From the NCBI RefSeq assembly GCF_002994745.2, contig NC_037091.1, positions 6,224,001-6,288,000 of the forward strand: 64,000 nt of DNA. The letters run 5' to 3'. The translations under genes were made by a program, and so were the position numbers. How positions within the stretch are numbered: the first letter of the stretch is position 1; each line of letters opens with the position of its first letter. This document shows positions 12,368 to 62,205 of this stretch, piece after piece. This stretch comes from Rosa chinensis. Its lineage: Eukaryota > Streptophyta > Magnoliopsida > Rosales > Rosaceae. The notes beneath the pieces are model-generated. The model did not search any database and had not been told where the DNA came from. It worked only from the letters and a program-made list of their open reading frames with translations.

Positions 12368-12444
12368 ATGGATAGTGATATAGTGGTAAGTATTCCTGCC
12401 TGTCACGCGGGTGACCCGGGTTCGATCCCCGGCAATGGCGTCAT
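12368..12444 (+). tRNA. tRNA-Asp(GTC)-like sequence at the primer-binding site (pseudo-tRNA)
   Basis: The sequence has a recognisable D-arm (TAGTGGTAAGTA), an anticodon arm with loop CTGTCAC (anticodon GTC) and a T-arm (GGGTTCGATCCCC), ending GGCAATGGCG-TCA. The 5' acceptor strand does not pair with the 3' strand, so a working tRNA is unlikely. Position explains it. Read on the minus strand, it starts one base after the 5' LTR, exactly where a PBS should be, but extends through nearly the whole tRNA instead of the usual 18 nt or so. At its other end it abuts the inverted LTR at 12367. It is best read as a reverse-transcribed primer tRNA fixed in the element. Confidence 0.75.
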
Positions 12445-14616: not shown

Positions 14617-17600
14617 TAAGGACTACGGGTCAAGATCAATACTACGGGAACATAGCTAATGCAGTGCAACAAGAAGGAGGTGTCTCAAAACAAGATGGAG
14701 ATGAGAGTAATCCAAGAGAAGCTGAAGGATATAATGACTCATCCATACAATCGTCAGTAGTATGAGGAACAACGACAATTACATGTGAAGTACAGTGCCT
14801 TTCTGCTACAAGAAGAAACTTATTGGCGGCAGAGGTCTAAAGGTTTTTGGCTGAAAGATGGTGACAAAAATACTGCTTTTTTTCATAGAAAAGCTTCAAA
14901 TGGAAGAACTAAAAACAGAATTAAAAGTTTGGTGGAAGAGGAGGGAGTTTGGCGCACTAAACCTGTTGAATTGCAATGTATTCTTTTGCAATATTTTAAG
15001 GGTATTTATACTTCTTCTGGCTCAACTACTCATGCATTATATGAAGTTTTGGCTGCTATTGATAGTAAGGTAACTGAAGATATGAATATTGAGCTGACGA
15101 AACCGTATGCTGAGGCTGAAATATAGGATGCATTATTTGAAATGCACCCTTCAAAAAGCCCAGGACCTAATGGTATGTCACCATTTTTCTTTCAAAAATA
15201 CTGGCATATCCTCTCAACTGATGTTTGTCTAAGGGTGAGAACATTCTTAGAAACAGGTGAACTAGAGAACTCGGCAAACTTTACTCATCTGTGCCTCATT
15301 CCCAAAATTCCAAAGACAACAGAAGCCAATCAATTCAAACCGATTGCACTATGCAATGTACTGTACAGAATAAGCTCCAAGGTAATAGCTAACAGACTAA
15401 AGAAGGTGTTGCCTTAAATCATTTCACCTCTACAAAGTGCCTATGTACCTGGTAGATTGATCTTTGATAACACTCTGGTAGCTACTGAGGTAGCTCATTT
15501 CATGCATAAGCTTCACAGGCAAGAAGAAGGTTTTCTCTCTCTTAAACTGGACATAAGCAAAGCTTATGACAGACTTGAATGTGATTTTGTAAGAGCCATG
15601 CTTACAAAATTGGGATTTCAAGCACAATGGATTAATACTATTATGAAATGTGTGGCATCAGTGCAATATTCTATTTTGATAAGTGGGCAGAAGCAATTGT
15701 ACCGACCAGGGGAATTAGGCAGGGTGATCCTTTATCACCTTACCTTTTCATTTTATGTACAGAAGGTTTGTCTGCTTTGATCTCAAATGCTGTGAACATG
15801 GCATAATTAAAAGGTCTAACTATGTGTCCTGGAGCTCCTACCTTGCATCACTTATTTTTTGCAGATGACAGTTTCAGTTTTGGAGCTACAACTGAAACAA
15901 AATGCTTTACATTGAGACATATCCTCAACACATATGAGCTTGCATCTGGCCAGAAGATAAATTTCCAAAAAGCAGTGTTGCTTGTAGTCGAAATATAGCT
16001 CCTGATATTCAAGAACATTTAGCTTCTATTTTTCAAGTTCAAAAAGTTGAGGAGCATGATCGATATCTTGGGTTGCCACTGAGAGTGGGAAAATCAAAGG
16101 CTGCAAAGTTTGCTTATATAAAAGAGAGGCTTTCAAAGAAGCTCATTGGCTAGAAATAAAAAATGCTCAGTTCAGCTGGTAAGAAAATTCTAATCAAAGC
16201 TGTTGCTCAAACATTGCCTTCATATGCTATGAATTGTTATTTGCTTCCCAAATCCTGGTGTGATGATATTCATCAGATGTGTGCCCAATTTTTTTTGGGG
16301 GGATACAGATCAAAAAAAGAAAATTCATTGGCGAAGCTGGGGTAGACTTTGTTTGACAAAACAGGAAGGAGGCTTGGGTTTCAAAAATCTTTTTGCATAT
16401 AATCTTGCTATGTTGGCTAAACAGGCTTGGAGATTGGTTTCAAATCCTCATTCTTTGATAGCCAAACTGTACAAGGCTAGATATTTTCCAAATCACTCTT
16501 TTTGGGAAGCAGAGTTGGGGGAAGCTCCATCTTTCTCTTGAAGAAGCATTTTAGAGAGTAGACATGTGCTTGCTGCTGGTGTACAATGGAAAATTGGTAA
16601 TGGAGCCAAGGTGAATGTGTAGAATGATAGATGGATATCGGATTGTCCATATTATTTATTACAAAGACCCTTGCATACAACTGTTCACAGGGTGTCAAAA
16701 AAATACTTAGTATCCCACTAAGTCGAGCAGCAATTGAAGACCAATATAGGTGGATGCCTAAGAAAAATGGTAAGTATACTGTCAAATCTGCATATTGGAT
16801 TGTGAGGGAGCATGTGATGGGTAGCTTTCTGATATCCACTTAATCTGGAGATCCTTATCGAAATTTGTGGAAGAGAATTTGGAATGCTAAGGTTCCTAGA
16901 AAGGTGCAAATCTGTGTCTGGAAGGCTGTCAACAATATCCTACCTACAAGAGAAAAGTTGGTTCAAAAAGGTTACACTGGTCCTGTTAATTGTTTGTTGT
17001 GCAATGAGATGCTTGAAACAAACACAAATGTCTTTTGTCATTGCCATATTGCAAAAGAAACTCTTGCTGTAACAACCATTCCAATTCAGAGCACTATGCT
17101 GTGTACTTTTAAGGATTGGATGTTGACTCAAGGGGAGCATCTAAGTAAAGAAGATTGGGAAAAGCTGATAATGATTGTTTGGGCTCTTTGGAAAAACAGA
17201 AACAGTAAATTATGGTCTGGTACTCATCAAAATGCATAGGCCATCATGACTAGTTCTTTGACTTGGTATAAAGAATATTTACAAGTGCAGCAGTCGCAGG
17301 TGGTACACACGACAGCCAAGTCTAATAGATATTGGATCCCACCTAAACCACAAAAGCTCAAAATCAATGTTGATGGAGCTTTCTTGCCCTCAAAGAATAT
17401 TGGGGGTATAGGTGGGGTTATCAGAAGAGATAATGGTGCTTTTGTTGCGGGTTTCTCTCACTCCCTTCAGTTTGTGTCTTTTCCAAAACAGTGGAATTAC
17501 TTGCCATTAGAATTGGTATTGATTTACTGCTGTAGCTAAGGTTACAGGATGTTTTCCTAAAGAGTGATTGCCAGATTGCCATTCAGGAGGTTGGTGCTGA

Positions 17601-39112: not shown

Positions 39113-39785
39113 AGGGCCCTTCTAGTGAGTAGTGAGGGATCTCTTTTTTTGGCCATTTTAAGGGATGTCTCATTAGACCCACTTTTTAATCACATATATG
39201 CATCTTATTCGTTCAGTTTTTAGATATATATGAGTAGATCACCTTTACAAATTTTCAGCGAAATTGATAATCATTAGGGCATTCATAATTGCATTTTACA
39301 ATTATAAATATGAACGGTTCAGGTTTGACAGATTCGGTTCATCCATTGATTTAATCGAGTTCGATGCCTTAATGTTCATCAATTTGGCTAAAAAATTTGC
39401 ATAAGTGATCTATACATTTGAACAAAAAACTGAACGATCGAGATGCCGTAATGATATCAAAAAGTGGGACTATCCTCAAAATGGACAAAAAAGGGGATCC
39501 CCTAATGGAAGGGTGTGTGTGTTTATATAGGCCCTAATGTATAGATCACTTCTACAAATTTTCAGCCAAATCGATGATCATTAAGGTATCGAACTAGATT
39601 AAGTCAATAAACGAACCGAATCTGTCCAACCTGAACCGTTCGTGTTCATAATCGTAAATCGCAGTTTTGAATGCCTTAAAGATTATCAATTTGGATGAAA
39701 ATTTGCAAAGATGATTTACTCATACATACTTAAAAACTAAATGGTCGAGATGTTGATAAACGATCGAAAAGTGGGTCTATCAAGG
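39113..39785. repeat. Nested inverted repeats (MITE-like)
   Basis: The segment beginning GGGCCCTTCTAGTGAG (39115) is matched in inverted orientation by sequence ending near 39530 (GGAAGGGTGTGTG...TAGGCCC). Blocks containing AAATTTTCAGC, CGGTTCAGG/CCTGAACCG and AAAAGTGGG recur in both orientations up to 39785. This looks like one or two related foldback elements side by side. There is no coding capacity. Confidence 0.5.
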
Positions 39786-44423: not shown

Positions 44424-44741
44424 TCAATATTTCTGATTGGTAGCCACACCAAATGGAGCCATTAAACGAGGATAAGCAGAAGCATGATGATGAGGCCGGC
44501 CATGTCCTCCTGCATAGTTCTTCACTTTGAGAGGGCAACCAGATCCGCCTGTACCGGGTATGTAGGTGCATTGAGAGGATCCAGTTGGTGGGGTCTCACC
44601 TCTAGGAAGAGACTGTAAGCTTATCAGTTCTCGCTTCATTAGCATTCCATCATTATAGAGTACTCTACTAGCTCTGTTGGGTTGTACATGTAGAATGCAC
44701 AGAAGCAGCAGCACAGCCAAAGCAGTATTGACAAGCCCCAT
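44424..44741 (-). CDS. Small secreted peptide precursor with PPTGSS-CTYIPG core
   Basis: A 105-residue single-exon precursor. The N-terminus M-G-L-V-N-T-A-L-A-V-L-L-L-L-C-I-L is a clear signal peptide, likely cleaved near residue 25. The core T-P-P-T-G-S-S-Q-C-T-Y-I-P-G is followed by G-S-G-C-P-L, giving two cysteines ten residues apart. A His-rich tail (G-R-P-H-H-H-A-S-A-Y-P) follows, absent from the 41.1-kb paralogue. A TATAAATACC box (plus-strand complement at about 44790-44800) sits about 55 bp upstream of the ATG. It likely acts outside the cell. I do not recognise the family name; the shared core and the two-Cys spacing are the supported facts. Confidence 0.72.
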   Translation of the reverse strand: MGLVNTALAVLLLLCILHVQPNRASRVLYNDGMLMKRELISLQSLPRGETPPTGSSQCTYIPGTGGSGCPLKVKNYAGGHGRPHHHASAYPRLMAPFGVATNQKY

Positions 44742-44801
44742 TAGCTTTGTATAGGAAGAATGATAACTTCATGAGGGAAATAATGATGGTATTTATAGCT
44801 G

Positions 44802-45600: not shown

Positions 45601-45622
45601 AAATGACGTAGTCATAAAGAGA

Positions 45623-47715
45623 AGGGACTTCAGGCCCTCATATAATTGGAGATCCAAGAAACTTGAGGTTTCAATTTTTTTTTCAATTTATAACAACCTC
45701 TTAAGGAACATCAGGTTCCTAGATAATTGGATTAAGAAACATTTAGTTTCAATGAGAACTCAAGAGGTTACAATAAATCTATGGAGTAGAACAATAGTGC
45801 TTTCAAGTTGCTTATTGTAAGCAAAAGACATCAGGAATGTGTGATGATCTCAATGTTCTTATTAGTCAATGAAATTTAATTTGACTAGTGCCATTTTGAA
45901 AATGGCTTGATAAACATCCACCATATAGTGTACCATAGGTGACACACGCCCAATTTTTAATTTCCTCACATGTGTGGCTGTGAGGGTAGTATTTACCTTG
46001 ACTCCTGATTTCTCTCTTGCCATGATCCACTTCTGGTGGCATTTCATGGTGTAGCCATGTCAATTGGCTTTCTTGCTATACAATGAGATCCATGAGATGG
46101 GGAGATTATACATCCCTGGTAATATTGGAGGCACAAAATGCAAAGAGACAATAATGTGCGCTCTTCTGGAGCCATAAATCAGATATGTAAGATCTGAGAT
46201 GATTTTTATATTAGCCTCATAAGCATAAGCCTTAATAATATTTTCTGGACACCATGGATAAAATTGCATTACCTGAAAATCACTCAAAACATAAGTTTGA
46301 AGATGACATAAATCAAATTTGCAAGAATTGAACAGTGGATCTCATAGGATATACACGAAGTTTCTAGTTCGTATTATACAGGTAAAACATGATGTTCAAT
46401 TATTGTATTGTTGTTCGATGTAGATTGCTAACATCAAATGCATTTTGAACTTCTGGTCAAAATGATTATTCGAAATATCGAGTTTAAACTTTATGACCAT
46501 AACTTATGAGTAAAGGACTTTAGATGGTCATCTAGTTAGTTTGATCATTGAGAAACTTCAAGTCCTCATGTAATTAAGAATCAAGGAACTACAGGTTCTG
46601 ATCTCTTTTAATTACAAAATCCACGATCACAAATTTGGGGTATACTCATACTCATTCGTCATAAACCAACGGTTAAATATCTGCTTACTTTTAAATTGGT
46701 GTCAATATAATTCCCTCAAAACTTCAGGTTTCAGGTTGACCGAGATTAAAACTCTTTGATAAATTGTCCATATATCCACTCGAAACTTAAGGCTCAAGTT
46801 TGCATAATTAGAACTTCAGGTTCTAAGGTGGAATGCTTTAAGCAGGCATAAAGAAGAATGTATCAATCGACATATGAAAATTTACTCGAAACTTCTAGTT
46901 CGAGTTGACATAAAGTCAAATAAACTATTAATGAATTATATGTGTAACCGAAGGCTTCAGGTTCAAATATTTTTTCTATGAACTGCAAGTTCTAAGATTT
47001 CATAATTTGAACTTCGGGTTCAAATAAATTTGGTGCTCGAAACTTCAGGCTCGAGGTGACTAAAGTGAATCTTCAAGTTCACTTTTAACTAATTTATATT
47101 TTACACTCAAAAACTTCGGGTTTGAGTTTTACTGTTAGAACTTCAAGTTCTGCTATGAAATTTTGAACTTCTGGTTCAAAAATATTACACTCAAAATTCA
47201 TATGTTCGAGGTATAGGACTATTGGTCCGTATGAGTAACAAAAACAATTCTTAATGAAAGAAAAGAAATTAATAGATAGCGAGCAAATAAATAAATTAAT
47301 AATGGAAACTTCTGGTTCCAGTAATGAAGAGAATACACAGAACTTCTGGTCTGGTTCATGAAAATCTTCTATCTGTCTTCAAATTGCACAAGAAATATAG
47401 CAATATTGTCTTCTGGACAAATTCTCTTTATAAAAAAAATATATAGTCAAGAGGCTTCTGGCATTGACTTAGTCTCCATCCTCAAACTACAGCTTCTGGA
47501 GGTGGTTTGAACCCCATTATAGAAAAAACAAATTAGAGGAACTTTAGGCCCTCTTATAATTAGGAATTAAGATGAGTTTATATAACGTTGAGGATCTTCT
47601 TACCCTCGTTAATTGCATAAGTTGTGAGGAACTCCATGTCGTAATTTCTCATTGTATAATTCTGGAGGAACTTCAAGTCCTCATGTAATCGAATCTAGAA
47701 ACATGAAGTTTCGAT
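45623..47715 (-). repeat. Array of more than 20 hairpins with constant loop and covarying stems
   Basis: Imperfect inverted repeats recur, each with a loop near CTTCWGG or CTTCAAG (plus strand) and a different but complementary stem. Examples are CATTTTGA/TCAAAATG at 46441-46464, TTAGAAC/GTTCTAA at 46808-46826, ACTCGAA/TTCGAGT at 46884-46905, ATTTGAAC/GTTCAAAT at 47005-47025, AAAGTGAA/TTCACTTT at 47062-47085, ACTCAAA/TTTGAGT at 47105-47127, TTTTGAAC/GTTCAAAA at 47161-47181 and TGGAA/TTCCA at 47303-47320. Others are at 45623, 45658, 45704, 45736, 46355, 46586, 46980, 47036, 47137, 47406, 47445, 47535 and 47664. The interval 45760-46340 lacks them. In the minus reading the array lies downstream of a copia-type LTR/primer-site junction (48546-48565), that is, in a probable retrotransposon leader. 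Short frames at 45862-46287 (minus) are not recognised. Confidence 0.8.
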
Positions 47716-47719
47716 CAAT

Positions 47720-48545
47720 TGTGATTACAGAATAAGGTGGTCAGATCAAGCAATAAATCAATAAAACAAAGGTTAAAATAAAGGTATTGATCAGTTAAGC
47801 TCACCCATACCGAGCTTGTAGACCAGAGGAAAACTAGTCCACTATTTCTGGAATAATCAATTGTTTTGATACAGAACCAAACAAATTTATTTCCTCACCG
47901 CAAGTCTACAACAGTTATCAACTATGTGTTCTATCAGCCAATTTGGTTAATAACTTCATTGTGTATGACTTAACCTTGCATATATATGTAAAAGGATAAT
48001 CAGTAACAAAGCATATATGAATTAAATAATTGATATGCTGTAGTATTGAAATATATATATATATATGTGATAGAGAGAACAAGTCTGTTAGCATGATTAT
48101 CAAGTTAATATTATATAAAAATAAACATGTTAATACTCATAGAAGACGTATCAGACTTGAAAACAAAAACAAAATAAACGAAATGTCATGGTGCTAGAGA
48201 TAAATAACATATATGAAACAGGAATTAATGGCACCCATTTATGATTATAAGATTTGATTAAGGGAAAAGTGGGCTGCGATTCCTATTATCTCATAATGGA
48301 ATCCAGTGAAAGCAAACACATATATAGCATATATAAGGAACAGTGTCCGTGCAATTGAGTAATTAGCAAACATCGGCTAGATATATATGATGCTGTATAT
48401 CTTCATAAACCCTAATATACCTAATTGACATAGATTATAAATAAACTCATAGATCATGAGTTATAGTTAAGCACAACAATGTTGCACAATAAAACTCGTA
48501 GATCATCATAGAGTTTTCAGAAGAAGAAAAAATGAGAGCAAAACG
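47720..48545 (-). other. Probable copia leader between LTR junction and hairpin array
   Basis: AT-rich, with a (TA)n run at about 48051-48066 and no coding frame. It is assigned to the copia remnant by position only. Confidence 0.4.
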
Positions 48546-48840
48546 TGCTGATAACGTGTTATAAAGTAGAGGAAAGATAAAGAGAGAAAAGTTGGGAGGA
48601 AGTAGAAGTATATCATTCAGTCTCATTAGCCTCCTTTATATAGAGGTAGAGTTTACATCAAAGTACATAACTAATGAGTAATTACATGGACATCCACATA
48701 GATAATAATATTTACAACAATTTGGATAATTTTATATATTTGTATCACAGCTTGTAATTTGGATAATTTTATCCAGACCTTTAAAATTAGTATTTGGACA
48801 TTTTCTTAAATAGAAAATCAAATTGTATCACAGCAATTTT
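48546..48840 (-). mobile_element. copia-type LTR end and primer-site junction (fragment)
   Basis: Read on the minus strand, TATAACACGTTATCAGCACG marks the LTR-to-leader junction, nearly the same as at 19765-19784. The LTR side (48566-48840) contains a complement of TATATAGAGG-type promoter sequence (about 48635). The leader continues down to the hairpin array. No pol gene or second LTR is recognised, so the element is partial. Confidence 0.55.
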
Positions 48841-50133: not shown

Positions 50134-52769
50134 ACATTTGACAGGACCCGACCCAGGAATCACCCCAATTACCTGGATACGAGCCTGCGGAGCCCACATT
50201 AAGCGAAATCCTACCGAAAATTCGGCAGAACCTCCCCTAAATATGGGCTACCCAAAAATTTCACAAACCTGGATATGATTACAACATTAACTTCTACTCA
50301 ACCTACAATATCATATTTACAATCCAAGCACATATATTACATCCGGAAAGTTCAAATCCCAACATAACCTCCGTAAGCAACCACAATCCGAACAACAACA
50401 TCCATCAAAAACAAAAGAAAAGGCTTATCAGAGCAACACTAAAACTAAGCCGATATCATACAAGGTAGGTTAAGTAATAACCTACGGACAAAAACGGAAG
50501 CGCTGATTCCCAAAGTCCTTGAGCCTGGACGCAATCTCGGCTAATCTGAAATCTGGGCATTTGAAAACGAAGGGCCCAGGGGAAAACATATAAAAATCCA
50601 TTAGAGTGAGTGGACAAAACCAAAATGAGAATCAAAACAATTTATGGTATGCTTCCCCATTTCTCTTTTTAAGAAAACCATCATGCAGCTAAACCCTATG
50701 AAGTTCCAACTCAATCCTTTTCCAAGAAACTCATTTGATGACTAGGAAGGACTGCTTCCTAGGCATCTCATGCCATCGGGGAGGGACTGCCACCCGATGA
50801 CGCATCGGAAGGGACTGCCAACCGGAGTAGGAGGCGGTGATTAGTTGGGACTGCCAACTAGCCACAGGTAGTAGACGGGACTGCCGACTAACTACCTCAA
50901 GTCATCTGGAAGGGACTACCAACCAGATGACGCATCAGATGGGACTGCCAACCGAGCTGTAGTCTGGACGGGACTGCCGACCAGATATTACCTAGAAGGG
51001 ACTGCCAACTAGGTAAGATACGCATGCGCCAAAACTGGCCTCCTTGTCAACTGCTTTCTTTTTAAATCTTTTACTTTCCATAGAGTCACATTTTCTCAAA
51101 TAATAAATCAACTGAAAACTTATTTCCATGCTGCATGCATTATTTTAACAAAATAAAAGTCCACTCACAAGTGAGTCCCGCAGCTAACCCTACTGCCTGC
51201 CTGTGTCCTCCTCGCTCGAGGGCTCAGTACGTCCTGTCACAATTGAATAGGATATAATTAACCATATAATGAAATACTCTCAAAAACAACTCATTCCCCT
51301 TGGAATAAGCATCCGTTATTCACAAATTGTTAGAAAACTCCCATCCTTTAATTTGGGATTAAATTCTATCATTCCTTTACAACCTCGATGCCCTCCAACT
51401 CATAACCACTCAATCAATTTTTAATTCGATTCCTTAACCATTCCAAGACCTCGCTTAATCTAAGCCTTCACAAAGACCGTTCGATAACTTAACAAATTTT
51501 TAATTCACTTCCTTCAACCCAATTTACCACCAATTTATAATACAAATCCTTTTCCAACAATTCCACATTCTTTCTTAATTTTTTTTTTCTCCTTTGCAAA
51601 AATCACAATTTTCAACTCTAACAATCTCAAATTCTCTCTAAACTTTCTTTTCCCAAACCACAATTTCAACACCAAATTCCTCAACAATATAGACCAATCC
51701 CACAATAACATTGACAATAAATTACCAAGAGATTAAGTCAAAAGATTCATCAACTAAAACATTTAAAACATCCATAATTTCCAAATTTCTCTTTGACATT
51801 CCAAACCCAAAATACTACTTCAACCTCTCAACACTCTCAACTCAACACCAAAAACATGACAACAAATTCTCAACCCAAGATAATAATCTTAACCACCTTA
51901 GAACCACAACCAACATCAAACTCCAAGGAAACTCATTAACCAACAACCTTAAATCTAACACAACAATTCATAGACTACAACTAACAGTTCCTATACCTGC
52001 AACAACAACCAAATTCAAGTAGAAATAACCAGAAAAATCAAACAACAACCCAAGAATTCGAGAGTTACTGTTCACGGTACTGTTCACAGTCTCAAACACC
52101 CTCAAATCTTCTTCCACCGATCAAAACGAGCTGCAACAAGGTTAGGAATACGTTCAGTACTTCCCCAACAACCAAAACCCCCAAAGAATCCGGCCGGAAA
52201 TCGCCGGAAACCGGACATCAAAGCAAAAATCCATTTTTTTTCCATTTCTGCAATTCTCCTCATATCTCCAAAATCAAAGCTACCCAAGGTGAAATACTTA
52301 CATGGCTAGAAGGAGAAGGAAGAGAGGATCACGCCGTGCCCAAGCTTTCGTCCTGGGGTGGCTGGACGGCGACGGAATCGCCGGAGAGAGGGAAAGCAGC
52401 GGCGGAAGAAGAAAAAAGAAAAGGGGGGGGTGACTCGGGTTCTACCCGTGCTCTATCTCTTTCCTCTTTTTTTTTTTTTTTTTTCTGATTCTTTCCCTTT
52501 CTCTCTCTTTCATTTGATTTTATCCCCTCCTTACCACATATAGTAGCTCACAAAAAAAGAAAATCATGCCAAAAAATAGAAATGTCTATTTTTGGTCATA
52601 ACGTTTCCGATATAAATCCAATTTAAACAAACTACGTGTCCACGAACTCGATTTTTCGTATTCTACGACAATCTCAAAGAAACTTCCTAATTTACCGGAC
52701 TAAAGAAAAAGTTACTCTTCGGTCAACCACGGTAAAAAGTAACTAGTAGGTACGGGGCATTACAACATT
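50134..52769. mobile_element. Solo LTR, about 2.63 kb, TSD ACATT
   Basis: The element runs TGACAGGACCCGACCC...GGGGCATTACA (50139-52764), bounded by TG and CA, with the 5-bp duplication ACATT on both sides (50134-50138 and 52765-52769). It carries no internal coding region, only short shadow frames. Large LTRs with these ends occur in plant Ty3/gypsy elements, an assignment from memory. It formed by LTR-LTR recombination after insertion into the LINE. It holds the hairpin array at 50742-51016. Transcription direction is not certain. Confidence 0.85.
50742..51016. repeat. Nine hairpins with loop GGGACTGCC and different complementary stems
   Basis: The clearest members are CTAGGAA/TTCCTAG (50742-50762), CATCGGG/CCCGATG (50774-50799), TAGTT/AACTA (50842-50860), GTCATCTGG/CCAGATGAC (50901-50931) and TTACCTAG/CTAGGTAA (50988-51016). 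Weaker ones lie at about 50804, 50866, 50936 and 50963. The loop GGGACTGCC (or GGGACTACC, GGACTGC) is nearly fixed while stem sequences differ and remain paired. Confidence 0.82.
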
Positions 52770-55135: not shown

Positions 55136-55964
55136 TGTTCAACAACACTACATAGTTTCTCACTTGATAAAAAGGTTCATAATGAATTGTTAGTAATATT
55201 AATTTAGTACTTATGAATAATGAGGTGATGTTAAAAAATGTTAGTCTTTAATTTTTTTATTCCCATTCTGCCCTTATGAATAATGAGGTGATGTTAAAAA
55301 AGTCTGTTTGTTGTCACTAGTAACTTGGTCAGTGATATGTGTATAACGGTGACATTGTCAGTAACATGCAATGTGACCTAACAAGTGACTTGGTCAGTGA
55401 TATGTGTATAATAGTGATGTGGCTCGTGACATGTCACTATGTATAACAGTAACATGGTCAATGACATGCAATGTGACTTGGCCAGTGACATGGATATAAC
55501 AGTGACTTTGCAATGACTTGTCAAGTGACATCTGATTGAGAGTGGCAAAATCAGTGACTTTGACAGTGAAATGGTCATGATCGTAACATGCCTAGTAACT
55601 TGCAGTTAACAGTGACTTGGTCAGTGACCTCACGAATTAGGGACTTGGGCTGGCCAATGACTTCACTGGCTAGTGACTTGGTCAGTGACATGACCAATAA
55701 CTTGGGCCAGTTACTTGGCTAGTGACTTGGCTAATGTCTTCATGAAGTTCAATTGAGGTCCCATTGCGCTCTGTACCTAAACTAATAGAGTCCAAACATA
55801 AGGCAACTAAAGCAATATCAGATGAGGTACTTTGATCATCAGTTACACCACTAGTCTTCCTCCCATAAATAATCTTTTCTTGAGCATCATGACCTTAGTC
55901 CTTAGGTGACATGATAAAAATTACTTTCACAGGTAAATTGGTTCAGTCTTTGCTTCTCACGCAT

Positions 55965-56345
55965 ATCCTCTCGAGGGAATTTATACTCACTTAGATTCGT
56001 GTCGAGGGGATTACTCCTCACTATATTAACCTTGAGGAGATATCTCCTCACATAGATTCGTCTTTAGGGAATTACTTTACTCCTCACCCAAATTTGTGTT
56101 AAAGGGATATCTCCTCACCCATATTTCCCTTGAGGAGATTACTCCTCACCCATATTAGCCTTGAGGGGATTTCTTCTCACACAGACTCACTTTTAGGGAA
56201 TTACTTTACTCCTCACCCAAATTTTCCTTAAGGGAATATCTCCTCACCAGATTTCCCTTAAAGAGATTACTCCTCAGCCATATTGATCTTGATGGGATTT
56301 CTCCTCAAACATATTCGCCTCTAAAGAATTACTTCTCACTCAATT
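55965..56345. repeat. Tandem repeat, about 40-45 bp, with GAGGAGATATCTCCTC palindrome core
   Basis: About nine or ten diverged units of the form T-T-GAGGGGATTNCTCCTCACCCATATT. One unit has the perfect 16-bp palindrome GAGGAGATATCTCCTC (56034-56049); others keep partial pairing (GAGGAGATTACTCCTC near 56132). The spacers are A/T/C-rich and also repeat. Confidence 0.75.
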
Positions 56346-57018
56346 TTTTTTTTCTTGTCATATTTTAGTAATTTTACAGAGATTTCTTTATGTTGTCGGG
56401 ATATATTCCAAATATCTTATATATTGGAAATATTTGACGATATCAGAGAAATTTCACATAAACGGTGAAAGACAAGATATGTTCCCTCCATGATATATCG
56501 GTCCCTCAAAAAAAATATATCAGGGGATAAATCAGAAATTTCACAAATATTTCAATCTTTGGGCCCAATTAACAGTTACTTGGCCAGTGACATGTGTATA
56601 ACAGTGACATGATCAGTGACATGCAATGTGACCTGAGGTATTTCTTGTTCTAGTAGTTACAATTTCTTTTATCTTTTACTGAAAAAGCATTGTTAATTGG
56701 ATTCTGGTGCTTGTATGCCAATATATAAAGCTTTTGATTATGGTTCTTAGTTTGGCGATTAGACAGTGACATGGTTAGTGACTTGGCCAATAACTTTGCT
56801 AATGACTTGAGGTTAACAGTGACTTGGTCAGTGACATGCAATGTGATTTGACCAATGATAGTGATTTGGTCAATTTAGAGAATACCTAAAATTTAAATTG
56901 CTACAAAAGATCTATAAAAATGATGTTTCATTAAAGAAAACTAAACATAACAGTGATACCATAAAAAGATACAAAAAACTAATTAATTAGAGTTTAAAAT
57001 TAGCCAGTGACTTGCATC

Positions 57019-57180
57019 TTAAGCCATAAACAAATTTCTAAAATTTCTTTTATCCTTGCTGCTCTTCTTCACAACTTTTTTCTTCTTGGTTGGAACTTCT
57101 ACTTCTTCTCTATAATCTTCTTCTTCACTTTCTTCTCTTTGTCTTCTTTTACCCGGCCCATGTGTCTTGTTTGTATATCC
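57019..57180 (-). other. Possible basic/acidic terminal exon, unrecognised
   Basis: After an AG acceptor (about 57180), the minus strand reads G-Y-T-N-K-T-H-G-P-G-K-R-R-Q, then an E-rich run, then V-P-T-K-K-K-K-V-V-K-K, and stops at 57019. The charged composition resembles a nuclear protein tail. It lies inside the GTGAC repeat region and could be the last exon of the minus-strand gene whose exon is at 63057-63125, but nothing proves that link. Confidence 0.3.
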
Positions 57181-57550
57181 TATACACAATTGTAAAAATG
57201 AGAAGATCATCAGTGACTTTAACAATTATATGATCAGTGACGTGTTTATGACTATGATATGGCCAAACCAGTAACTTGAGATTAACAATGATTTGGCCAG
57301 TGACCTCACTAACTAGGGACTTGACCTGGCCAATGACGTGTATAGCAATGACTTGGTCAGTGACATACAATGTGATCTGTCCAGTGACATGGATATAACA
57401 GTGACTTGGCAAGTGATATGTGATTAACAGTGACTTTGACAGTTACATAATCGATCACATGGTCATGAGTCATGACATGGCCAGTAACTTGGCTAGTGAC
57501 TTGAGGTTAACAGTGACTTGGTCAGTGACATCACTAACCAGAAGTGACCT

Positions 57551-60932: not shown

Positions 60933-61315
60933 GTGAGCTTATTTGTTTGAACTTTAATATAAGCCTGATTCAATTTTCAGTAGATTTACTAGACTGCACT
61001 AGTAATTTTGTCACTGGCCATCTGGATCGGAATATAACTAAAATTGAATCCGAAAAATAAGTTTGGTAAAATGTACAAGTTTGATAAAATTGTAACCAAG
61101 TAAGACGCTTTTAATTTATAATATGTGTTCCAAAAATATTAATATGGTTTTGAATTTAACATAACTTTCCTGGAGATTTACATTTGTTGATTTCTTTTAC
61201 ATTCATACATGATATTCCAGCCATCTGCATTCATCTACCTTTTCATTTGGGCTTTTACTAAAATCTATTCTTGTTTGTGCTAGTATCTTATGTGCATGTT
61301 GAAGATCGACTGAAG

Positions 61316-62205
61316 ATGGCGATGAGCGTGAGAGGAGAGATGGAGAAGCTGAGCATGGAGCAGTTGAAGGCAGTGAAAGAGCAAACTGATCTGGAGGTCA
61401 ATCTTCTCCAGGACTCTCTCAACAACATCCTCACCGCCACCACCCGCCTGGAGCTCACCTCCTCCGCCCTCCACGACCTCTCCCTCCGACCCACCGGCAA
61501 AAAGATGCTCGTCCCTCTTACCGCCTCCCTTTACGTCCCCGGAACTCTCCAGGACCCCGACCAGGTCCTCGTCGACGTCGGCACCGGCTACTTCATCGAG
61601 AAGAACATGCCTCAAGCCAAAGACTACTGCGACCGCAAGATCAATCTCCTCAAGTCCAATTTCGAACAACTCGTTGAGGTCAAAGTTCTCCTCTTTGTGA
61701 ATCTATTTCAATATTTCTTACGTTTAGGTTTGGTGATTAGTCTTCCTTCTTTCTTGCTCATATACGAGACCTGAAATTGAAAACCTCCTTATGCATAATA
61801 TGTTTCTTGTTTGCTACTCGTAATGCCAATTTCATATCTCAGCTACTTTGCTATTACCTTCAAAAATTCATTGTTTTGCTGCTCTGTGGCAGCCGCAATT
61901 GAGTAGTGTTTCTGTGACCATTGATCCAGAGTTTAGGAGATTGCTGATTGCTGTAATGTTTTCTTTGTATGTTTTAATCAAAGGGGGGACAAAAATGCTC
62001 CTCTTGACTCTAATGCATACCTTAAATTGCTTTAAAGTAGGGCTACTCTTTCTTTGCTTATTAGTTCTTCCTTTTTTGTTGTTGTTTTCTTCTAATTACG
62101 AAATTGTAAATTGATATGCAGGTTGCTTCTAAGAAGAAAAGCATATCTGATGAAGCTGGGTTACTTTTGCAAGCAAAACTGAAGCAGATGGCTCCTACAG
62201 CATAG
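61316..62205 (+). CDS. PFD5: Prefoldin subunit 5 (2 exons)
   Basis: Prefoldin is the cytosolic hexameric chaperone that passes unfolded actin and tubulin to the TRiC/CCT chaperonin; subunit 5 is an alpha-type subunit. Exon 1 is 61316-61678 and exon 2 is 62122-62205, joined GAG|GTT with GT...TGCAG borders, giving 148 residues (family about 150). An N-terminal coiled coil (M-E-Q-L-K-A-V-K-E-Q-T-D-L-E-V-N) leads to L-L-Q-D-S-L. The beta-hairpin region has M-L-V-P-L-T-A-S-L-Y-V-P-G and V-D-V-G-T-G-Y-F-I-E-K, and a C-terminal coiled coil ends K-L-K-Q-M-A-P-T-A. All hallmarks are present and the ORF is intact. The start at 61316 is preferred over 61271 because family members begin here. It sits inside the CACTA element, without a clear promoter of its own apart from 61020-61310. 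Confidence 0.88.

Follow-up and report, generated by a model that had tools for sequence, protein, structure and literature searches.

A hairpin array with a near-constant loop and unit-specific stems in the putative leader of a Bianca-like retroelement relic of Rosa chinensis

A structured, loop-defined array of hairpins (array 1) is confirmed in contig NC_037091.1 of Rosa chinensis, within the 64,000-nucleotide stretch of DNA that we analysed as a whole and refer to as the window. Its units share a near-constant loop that is always read in the same direction, and the arms flanking this loop differ from unit to unit and pair with each other within each unit. An initial annotation of this DNA had described more than 20 such hairpins with a near-constant loop and unit-specific complementary stems; the array and its design stand, whereas the number was generous, 15–19 units being clear.

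45616..47715, minus strand: hairpin array 1, about 15–19 clear units; plus-strand core (A)C-TTCWR-G; loop YNGAA on the minus (presumed sense) strand in most units

Existence, core and unit number of array 1

Perfect stems with loops of 3–9 nt are in excess between 45616 and 47715 when compared with the mean of 200 dinucleotide shuffles, a scan that the initial annotation had suggested. We counted 30 stems of at least 5 pairs vs. 16.8 expected (1/200 shuffles as high), 14 of at least 6 pairs vs. 5.2 (1/200), 10 of at least 7 pairs vs. 1.5 (0/200), and 4 of at least 8 pairs vs. 0.4 (0/200). Stem density alone does not single out the array, since 2-kb bins hold 12 stems of at least 6 pairs at 14–16 kb vs. 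11 at 46–48 kb, and 6 vs. 7 of at least 7 pairs. However, when the 375 hairpins of at least 5 pairs in the window were clustered by similar centre, a hairpin being flagged if it had two or more neighbors with a similar centre, only array 1 emerged, with all 10 of the flagged hairpins. Therefore, it is the shared centre rather than the density of stems that sets array 1 apart in the window.

The exact core CTTC[AT][AG]G is found 19 times in array 1 and 20 times in that part of the window which lies beyond the array and its 1-kb flanks, and all exact cores in the array point one way (19:0). Reverse cores in the array number 0 if exact and 10 with at most one mismatch, the latter being the background rate. 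Because the exact cores are 27–402 nt apart, mostly at no multiple of three, and the three minus frames of 40.0–48.6 kb contain no Pfam domain, we rejected a coding repeat. A known RNA family was likewise rejected, there being no Rfam match above the gathering score at array 1; the sole Rfam match in the window (12375–12433) falls in a tRNA-Asp(gtc) gene or copy at 12371–12440.

With at most one mismatch allowed there are 38 cores, 15 to 19 of which have a clear stem. The 15 that pass the pairing threshold comprise 7 symmetric hairpins, 7 with a one-base bulge on the plus-strand left arm and 1 with such a bulge on the right arm, vs. 1.2 symmetric and about 0.5 of either bulged kind if arms were exchanged. 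Five of the seven left-arm bulges adjoin the closing pair, the bulged base being A in four and T in one. At the weak end, 8 of the 19 exact cores are flanked by 4 pairs or fewer. When stems were picked by pairing only, 8 of 14 with at least 6 pairs had the TTC core at their axis (a fifteenth, overlapping stem was left out); loop and arms are thus each detectable independently of the other, through core-only and pairing-only selection.

The following units are individual examples, and the first five carry the arm pairs quoted in the initial annotation, all of which are present.

46441..46464, minus strand: unit CATTTTGA/TCAAAATG, 9 pairs when an A adjoining the closing C-G is taken as bulged
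46808..46826, minus strand: unit TTAGAAC/GTTCTAA, 7 pairs, plus-strand loop TTCAG
46884..46905, minus strand: unit ACTCGAA/TTCGAGT, 8 pairs, bulged A
47005..47025, minus strand: unit ATTTGAAC/GTTCAAAT, 8 pairs
47062..47085, minus strand: unit AAAGTGAA/TTCACTTT, 9 pairs, bulged T
47161..47181, minus strand: unit TTTTGAAC/GTTCAAAA, 8 pairs

Segments in or near the array are duplicated, 46885–47030 resembling 47036–47186 (69%) and 46550–46620 resembling 47665–47733 (76%). The units at 47005–47025 and 47161–47181 are homologous, with a change of the outermost pair from A-T to T-A between them.

Pairing within units of array 1

Unit-specific pairing was tested by exchanging arms between units. For the 19 units chosen by core only, own arms pair better than swapped arms, and none of 20,000 permutations was as good as the real arrangement; for the 20 background cores outside array 1 and its 1-kb flanks, 13,147 of 20,000 permutations were as good. 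The mean contiguous Watson-Crick stem measures 4.9 pairs with own arms vs. 2.5 with swapped ones (0/50,000, a one-base bulge being allowed to both), and shuffling the other letters of the array singly with the cores fixed gave no arrangement as good in 2000. At least 6 contiguous Watson-Crick pairs are formed by 7 of the 19 exact-core units, and the own arm ranked first in 7 of 19. The first 4–5 pairs contribute the strongest signal: after removal of 3, 4, and 5 inner positions, 1, 158, and 2286 of 20,000 permutations, respectively, were as good, and the bulge-tolerant version gave 2 and 130 of 20,000 without 3 and 4 inner positions.

Structure counts point the same way, with the reservation that the 15 units used for them were preselected for pairing, whereas the units of the swapped-arm tests in both arrays were chosen without it. 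Ten of these units have no bulge at the closing pair; in them, 78.8% of cells are paired vs. 58.1% after shuffling, and covariation is 0.558 vs. 0.172 (0/500), each slid register being lower. In the 5 units with a bulge at the closing pair the corresponding values are 91.1% vs. 66.5% and 0.733 vs. 0.218 (0/500). A covariance model built from the 10 units returned 16 matches at E ≤ 1 in a search of the window, of which 14 lie in array 1 (9 of the 10 own units, and 5 further units at E 0.07–0.6) and 2 elsewhere (E 0.46 and 0.72). Since some of the 5 new units score no better than the 2 outside matches, the model separates the array as a group, not each unit.

Folding is less clear with regard to strand. 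Two 150-nt pieces of array 1 fold little better than shuffles on the sense (minus) strand (z −1.05 and −1.21), whereas the plus strand folds better (z −3.51 and −2.15). The ratio of G.U to A.C, both read on the plus strand, was 5:6, 1:6, or 12:6 (the last with the loosest threshold), so that its sign depends on the definition.

Setting of array 1

Array 1 lies 0.8–2.9 kb past an LTR end and primer site on the minus strand, i.e., in the position of a leader, where the initial annotation had also placed it.

48557..48719, minus strand: putative short 5' LTR, about 163 bp, from reading the sequence, outer end set by eye
48634..48642, minus strand: TATA-like TATATAAAG, upstream of the primer site and inside the putative short LTR
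48544..48556, minus strand: primer-binding site CGTTATCAGCACG, immediately following ...AACA, the end of the LTR
47716..48543, minus strand: leader between primer site and array 1, with 20 of the leader's 69 ATGs

We read ACA followed by CGTTATCAGCACG (48544–48559) as the junction of LTR end and primer site. The CGTTATCAGCACG site fits the anticodon region of what we take to be the sequence of tRNA-Ile(IAU), with C opposite the inosine. For Bianca, a Ty1/copia lineage, an edited half-tRNA-Ile with inosine as the first anticodon base has been reported as the primer (PMC6317226, Mob DNA 2019), and the site at 48544–48556 fits this primer. The best reading of the host element is a truncated Bianca-like Ty1/copia copy, its lineage being taken from the primer site alone, and the position of array 1 suggests that the array and the LTR are parts of one element. 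A blastn search of the 64-kb window revealed no second LTR, and hence no pair of LTRs framed by a target-site duplication; the host element is therefore at most a relic, which we call Bianca-like. No gag was found in the minus frames of 40.0–48.6 kb, and no homologue was found for one ORF of array 1.

Two other leads, on the identity of the element and on further copies of it, were rejected. Yin et al. (2017) distinguish TGTT and AACA elements in Rosaceae, assigned to Ale, and we considered their AACA class for the LTR end AACA; however, as used there the class denotes ends AA...CA, whereas the LTR here is TG...CA. Six loci in viral contigs carry the exact 16-base LTR/primer-site pattern, which we attribute to chance, as none has a blastn match to the window (E 1e-4).

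Other features of this side of the window include a small minus-strand gene at 44424–44768, which by eye has the look of a secreted peptide; its product is 97% identical to a Rosa sericea protein, has relatives in Rosa, Prunus, Pyrus, Malus, and Carya, and belongs to no Pfam family. An inverted repeat with arms of 224 nt that are 81% complementary occupies 39174–39779. Further along the window, 61262–61774 holds an ORF with a prefoldin domain (Pfam E 3.8e-27).

A second array in an unrelated insert

A second, independent example of the design of array 1 is located 3 kb away, in an unrelated insert.

50736..51016, strand not assigned: hairpin array 2 with 9 units, the loop reading GACTG in all but one, which has GACTA (GGGACTGCC)
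50139..52764, strand not assigned: LTR-like insert of 2626 bp with the ends TG...CA, flanked left and right by ACATT; holds array 2

Both arrays head a scan of 61 six-letter words, each occurring at least 6 times within 1 kb, that were tested by exchanged arms: the top words, at 0–10 of 3000, belong to array 1 (TTCTGG, CTTCTG) and array 2 (GGGACT, GGACTG, GACTGC, ACTGCC), and CCTCAC follows at 29/3000. The latter word comes from the CTCCTCAC repeats at 56.0–56.35 kb, which we rejected as a further array, since TCCTCA scored 697/3000 and CCTCAC is weakly above swapped arms. These repeats (55990–56365) are 31 bp long and arranged in tandem; their GAGG...CCTC stem varies little from unit to unit and its pairing is broken in several, an ordinary contrast to both arrays. 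Degenerate GTGACTTGGTCAGTGACATG (GTGAC) repeats at 55319–57543 form two blocks around another repeat; as a further array (55.3–57.5 kb) they were also rejected, their words scoring near swapped arms with no clear unit-specific pairing.

The units of array 2 are built around GGACT[AG]C, 28–36 bases apart, with the exact cores in one orientation (8:0). The inner stem is GG/CC in 8 of 9 units. A.A mismatches recur at position four (6 of 9 units) and position three (4 of 9), a G-C pair follows in 9 of 9, and the outer stems are variable, paired, and specific to each unit. None of 20,000 arrangements with swapped arms was as good as the real one, and only 1 of 20,000 when the four inner positions were left out. 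Across the 9 units, 81.9% of cells are paired vs. 73.0%, and covariation is 0.403 vs. 0.247 (1/500 each), whereas pair types are no more numerous than in shuffled units (407/500). A covariance model from the 9 units had five matches at E ≤ 1, all of them among these units, and for a 141-nt piece of the array the fold of either strand is better than that of shuffles (z −3.66 and −3.99).

The insert is probably a solo LTR, and the place of array 2 is within this LTR-like sequence rather than in an internal leader. The surroundings of the insert look like a LINE relic, with a zf-RVT match below the cut-off on one flank and none on the other. Elsewhere in the window, a LINE-like reverse-transcriptase fragment is found at 15418–15780 (RVT_1 E 8e-6, below the curated cut-off).

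Proposed explanation and alternatives

We tentatively favor the hypothesis that array 1 consists of repeated loop-recognition hairpins with free stems in a Bianca-like leader, which would work like the packaging signals of satellite tobacco necrosis virus (STNV). The recognised part would be the loop, its closing pair and the inner pairs, while the rest of the stem would need only to pair. Each unit would act as RNA of the minus (sense) strand, with the loop bound by a protein, most likely the Gag/nucleocapsid of the element itself, and many weak sites might jointly single out the genomic RNA to be packaged or dimerised, in the manner of the multiple stem-loops with a preferred loop in STNV. 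The paired changes may be supplied by template switching during DNA replication or reverse transcription and then kept by selection. A near-constant loop and closing pair in one orientation, with arms that change in pairs, is what would be expected if the loop is read and the stem merely presents it, and the recurrence of the same design in a second, unrelated repeat suggests the loop as the recognised part. Against loop recognition stand the weak folds of the two sense-strand pieces and the near-absence of one-sided changes, which is unlike stepwise evolution via G.U. The failure to find a coding domain in the minus frames, or a homologue of the array ORF, also counts against it, as does the location of array 2 in an LTR-like insert. 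Packaging or dimerisation had been among the leader roles offered by the initial annotation, and such a role is plausible.

More broadly, it is conceivable, though on balance unlikely, that at least two unrelated plant LTR families possess multivalent, loop-defined hairpin arrays whose stems are free as long as they pair, whose pairing is renewed by template switching and whose loop serves in each family as an "address" read by its own Gag, so that the packaging-signal logic of small RNA viruses would be compressed into a leader or LTR.

Alternative to recognition of the loop, the stems might have a purely mutational origin, in which the constant core folds back, template switching copies one flank onto the other, and the core is spread by tandem duplication, with no function needed. 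This account was absent from the options of the initial annotation, and we consider it possible, if somewhat doubtful. Changes in the stems are mostly two-sided, with 29 two-sided vs. 2 one-sided cells in array 1 and 12 vs. 3 in array 2, and this dominance favors a one-step origin of the stems through template switching; two-sided changes fit free stems with preserved pairing as well. Further, Watson-Crick pairs make up nearly all of the stems (122 of 129 positions counted in 19 stems), and the stems differ wholesale. In array 2, CATCGGG/CCCGATG in one unit corresponds to CATCTGG/CCAGATG in a homologous unit that shares its neighbors, both partners having changed, and such a transversional paired change cannot pass through G.U. 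The mechanism itself is documented (PMC8794818), and the segments of array 1 are visibly duplicated. However, template switching leaves unexplained why the loop is near-constant amid diverging arms and spacers, and, beyond shared ancestry, why the orientation is 19:0. Inversion of the loop, one of the marks of the process though no strict requirement, is absent among the exact cores. The A.A mismatches of array 2 also persist, although copying that began outside them would leave them in place.

A different possibility is that the units act as DNA-level palindromes, either as cruciforms or as double-stranded protein-binding sites, e.g., in regulation or recombination. The lack of a clear strand preference for G.U over A.C and the nearly pure Watson-Crick pairing would suit palindromes in DNA, whereas a binding site would keep the sequence of its arms, which here differ per unit, and the loops lie in one orientation. 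Stems of 5–9 pairs are, moreover, short for stable cruciforms. Therefore, we regard this explanation as improbable.

The initial annotation had also listed translation control and protection from silencing, to which shunting may be added, as roles for a leader structure, and these found no support here, so that we give them little credence. The leader is long and puts 69 ATGs in the path of a scanning ribosome, which counts for such roles; however, 52 are expected, so that ATGs are not depleted, and the gag that such control would serve was not found in the frames searched. Simple scanning to a downstream gag is therefore unlikely. As to silencing, stems of 5–9 pairs are too short for Dicer processing, and we rejected Dicer or miRNA hairpins on the same general grounds.

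Finally, a simple degenerate tandem repeat, whose pairing would be left from one palindromic ancestor, can draw on the duplicated segments of array 1 and is what the 56.0–56.35 kb repeat looks like, but for array 1 it is hardly credible, since a repeat with the same stem in every unit is contradicted by the swapped-arm tests (0/20,000 and 0/50,000), as the initial annotation had argued in setting the array apart from a drifted tandem repeat.

Comparison with known systems

To our knowledge, the choice of plant retrotransposon RNAs for packaging has been little studied. If the loop of array 1 is a Gag address, packaging specificity, including the carriage of non-autonomous copies, would become directly testable, whereas if template switching makes the stems, the arrays would document how this kind of mutation proceeds naturally in a retroelement. 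In the MS2 operator hairpin, the coat protein reads the loop together with a bulged A in the stem. Array 1 resembles this in the bulged nucleotide next to the closing pair in 5 of the 15 units (A in 4, T in 1), and differs in its loop, in that the bulge is present in part of the units only, and in having no known protein.

Material for comparison may be abundant, since in Rosa canina more than 45% of the full-length LTR elements annotated are reported to be Bianca (PMC12222009), and many natural variants of the leader may therefore exist. In the open-licence PMC literature, we found no description, among the matches listed, of hairpin arrays with constant loop and variable stems in retroelements. 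Family-specific tandem repeats are known from non-coding parts of plant LTR elements, such as the 3' regions of Retand elements (PMC11963269); those arrays lie between pol and the 3' LTR, and the word hairpin is absent from the main text of that report. RNA hairpins made by template switching, with perfect stems and multi-base paired changes, were described by Monttinen and Loytynoja (2022; PMC8794818), whose account concerns RNA genes rather than retroelement arrays and, as presented there, gives no reason to expect the loop to be constant among units.

The closest setting is the 5' leader of Ty1, also an LTR retrotransposon, in which kissing-loop hairpins (in the TIPIRT domain) have been modelled for dimerisation and packaging, with compensatory mutations in support (PMC5454406). 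As modelled, however, the Ty1 leader has two hairpins with complementary loops plus a pseudoknot in 326 nt, whereas array 1 repeats a single loop at least 15 times within 2.1 kb.

The closest design is that of viral packaging signals. In STNV, assembly prefers the loop and is indifferent to the sequence of the stem, and as many as 30 such stem-loops may be present in the genome (PMC3593212); the RGAG loops of HBV are likewise packaging signals with a shared loop motif. The signals of STNV and HBV are dispersed through a viral genome and have a proven protein partner, whereas array 1 is dense, is located in a non-coding retroelement relic, and is known from sequence alone. Like the AXXA loops of STNV, array 1 combines many small stem-loops, a shared loop motif, and stems that are free but paired.
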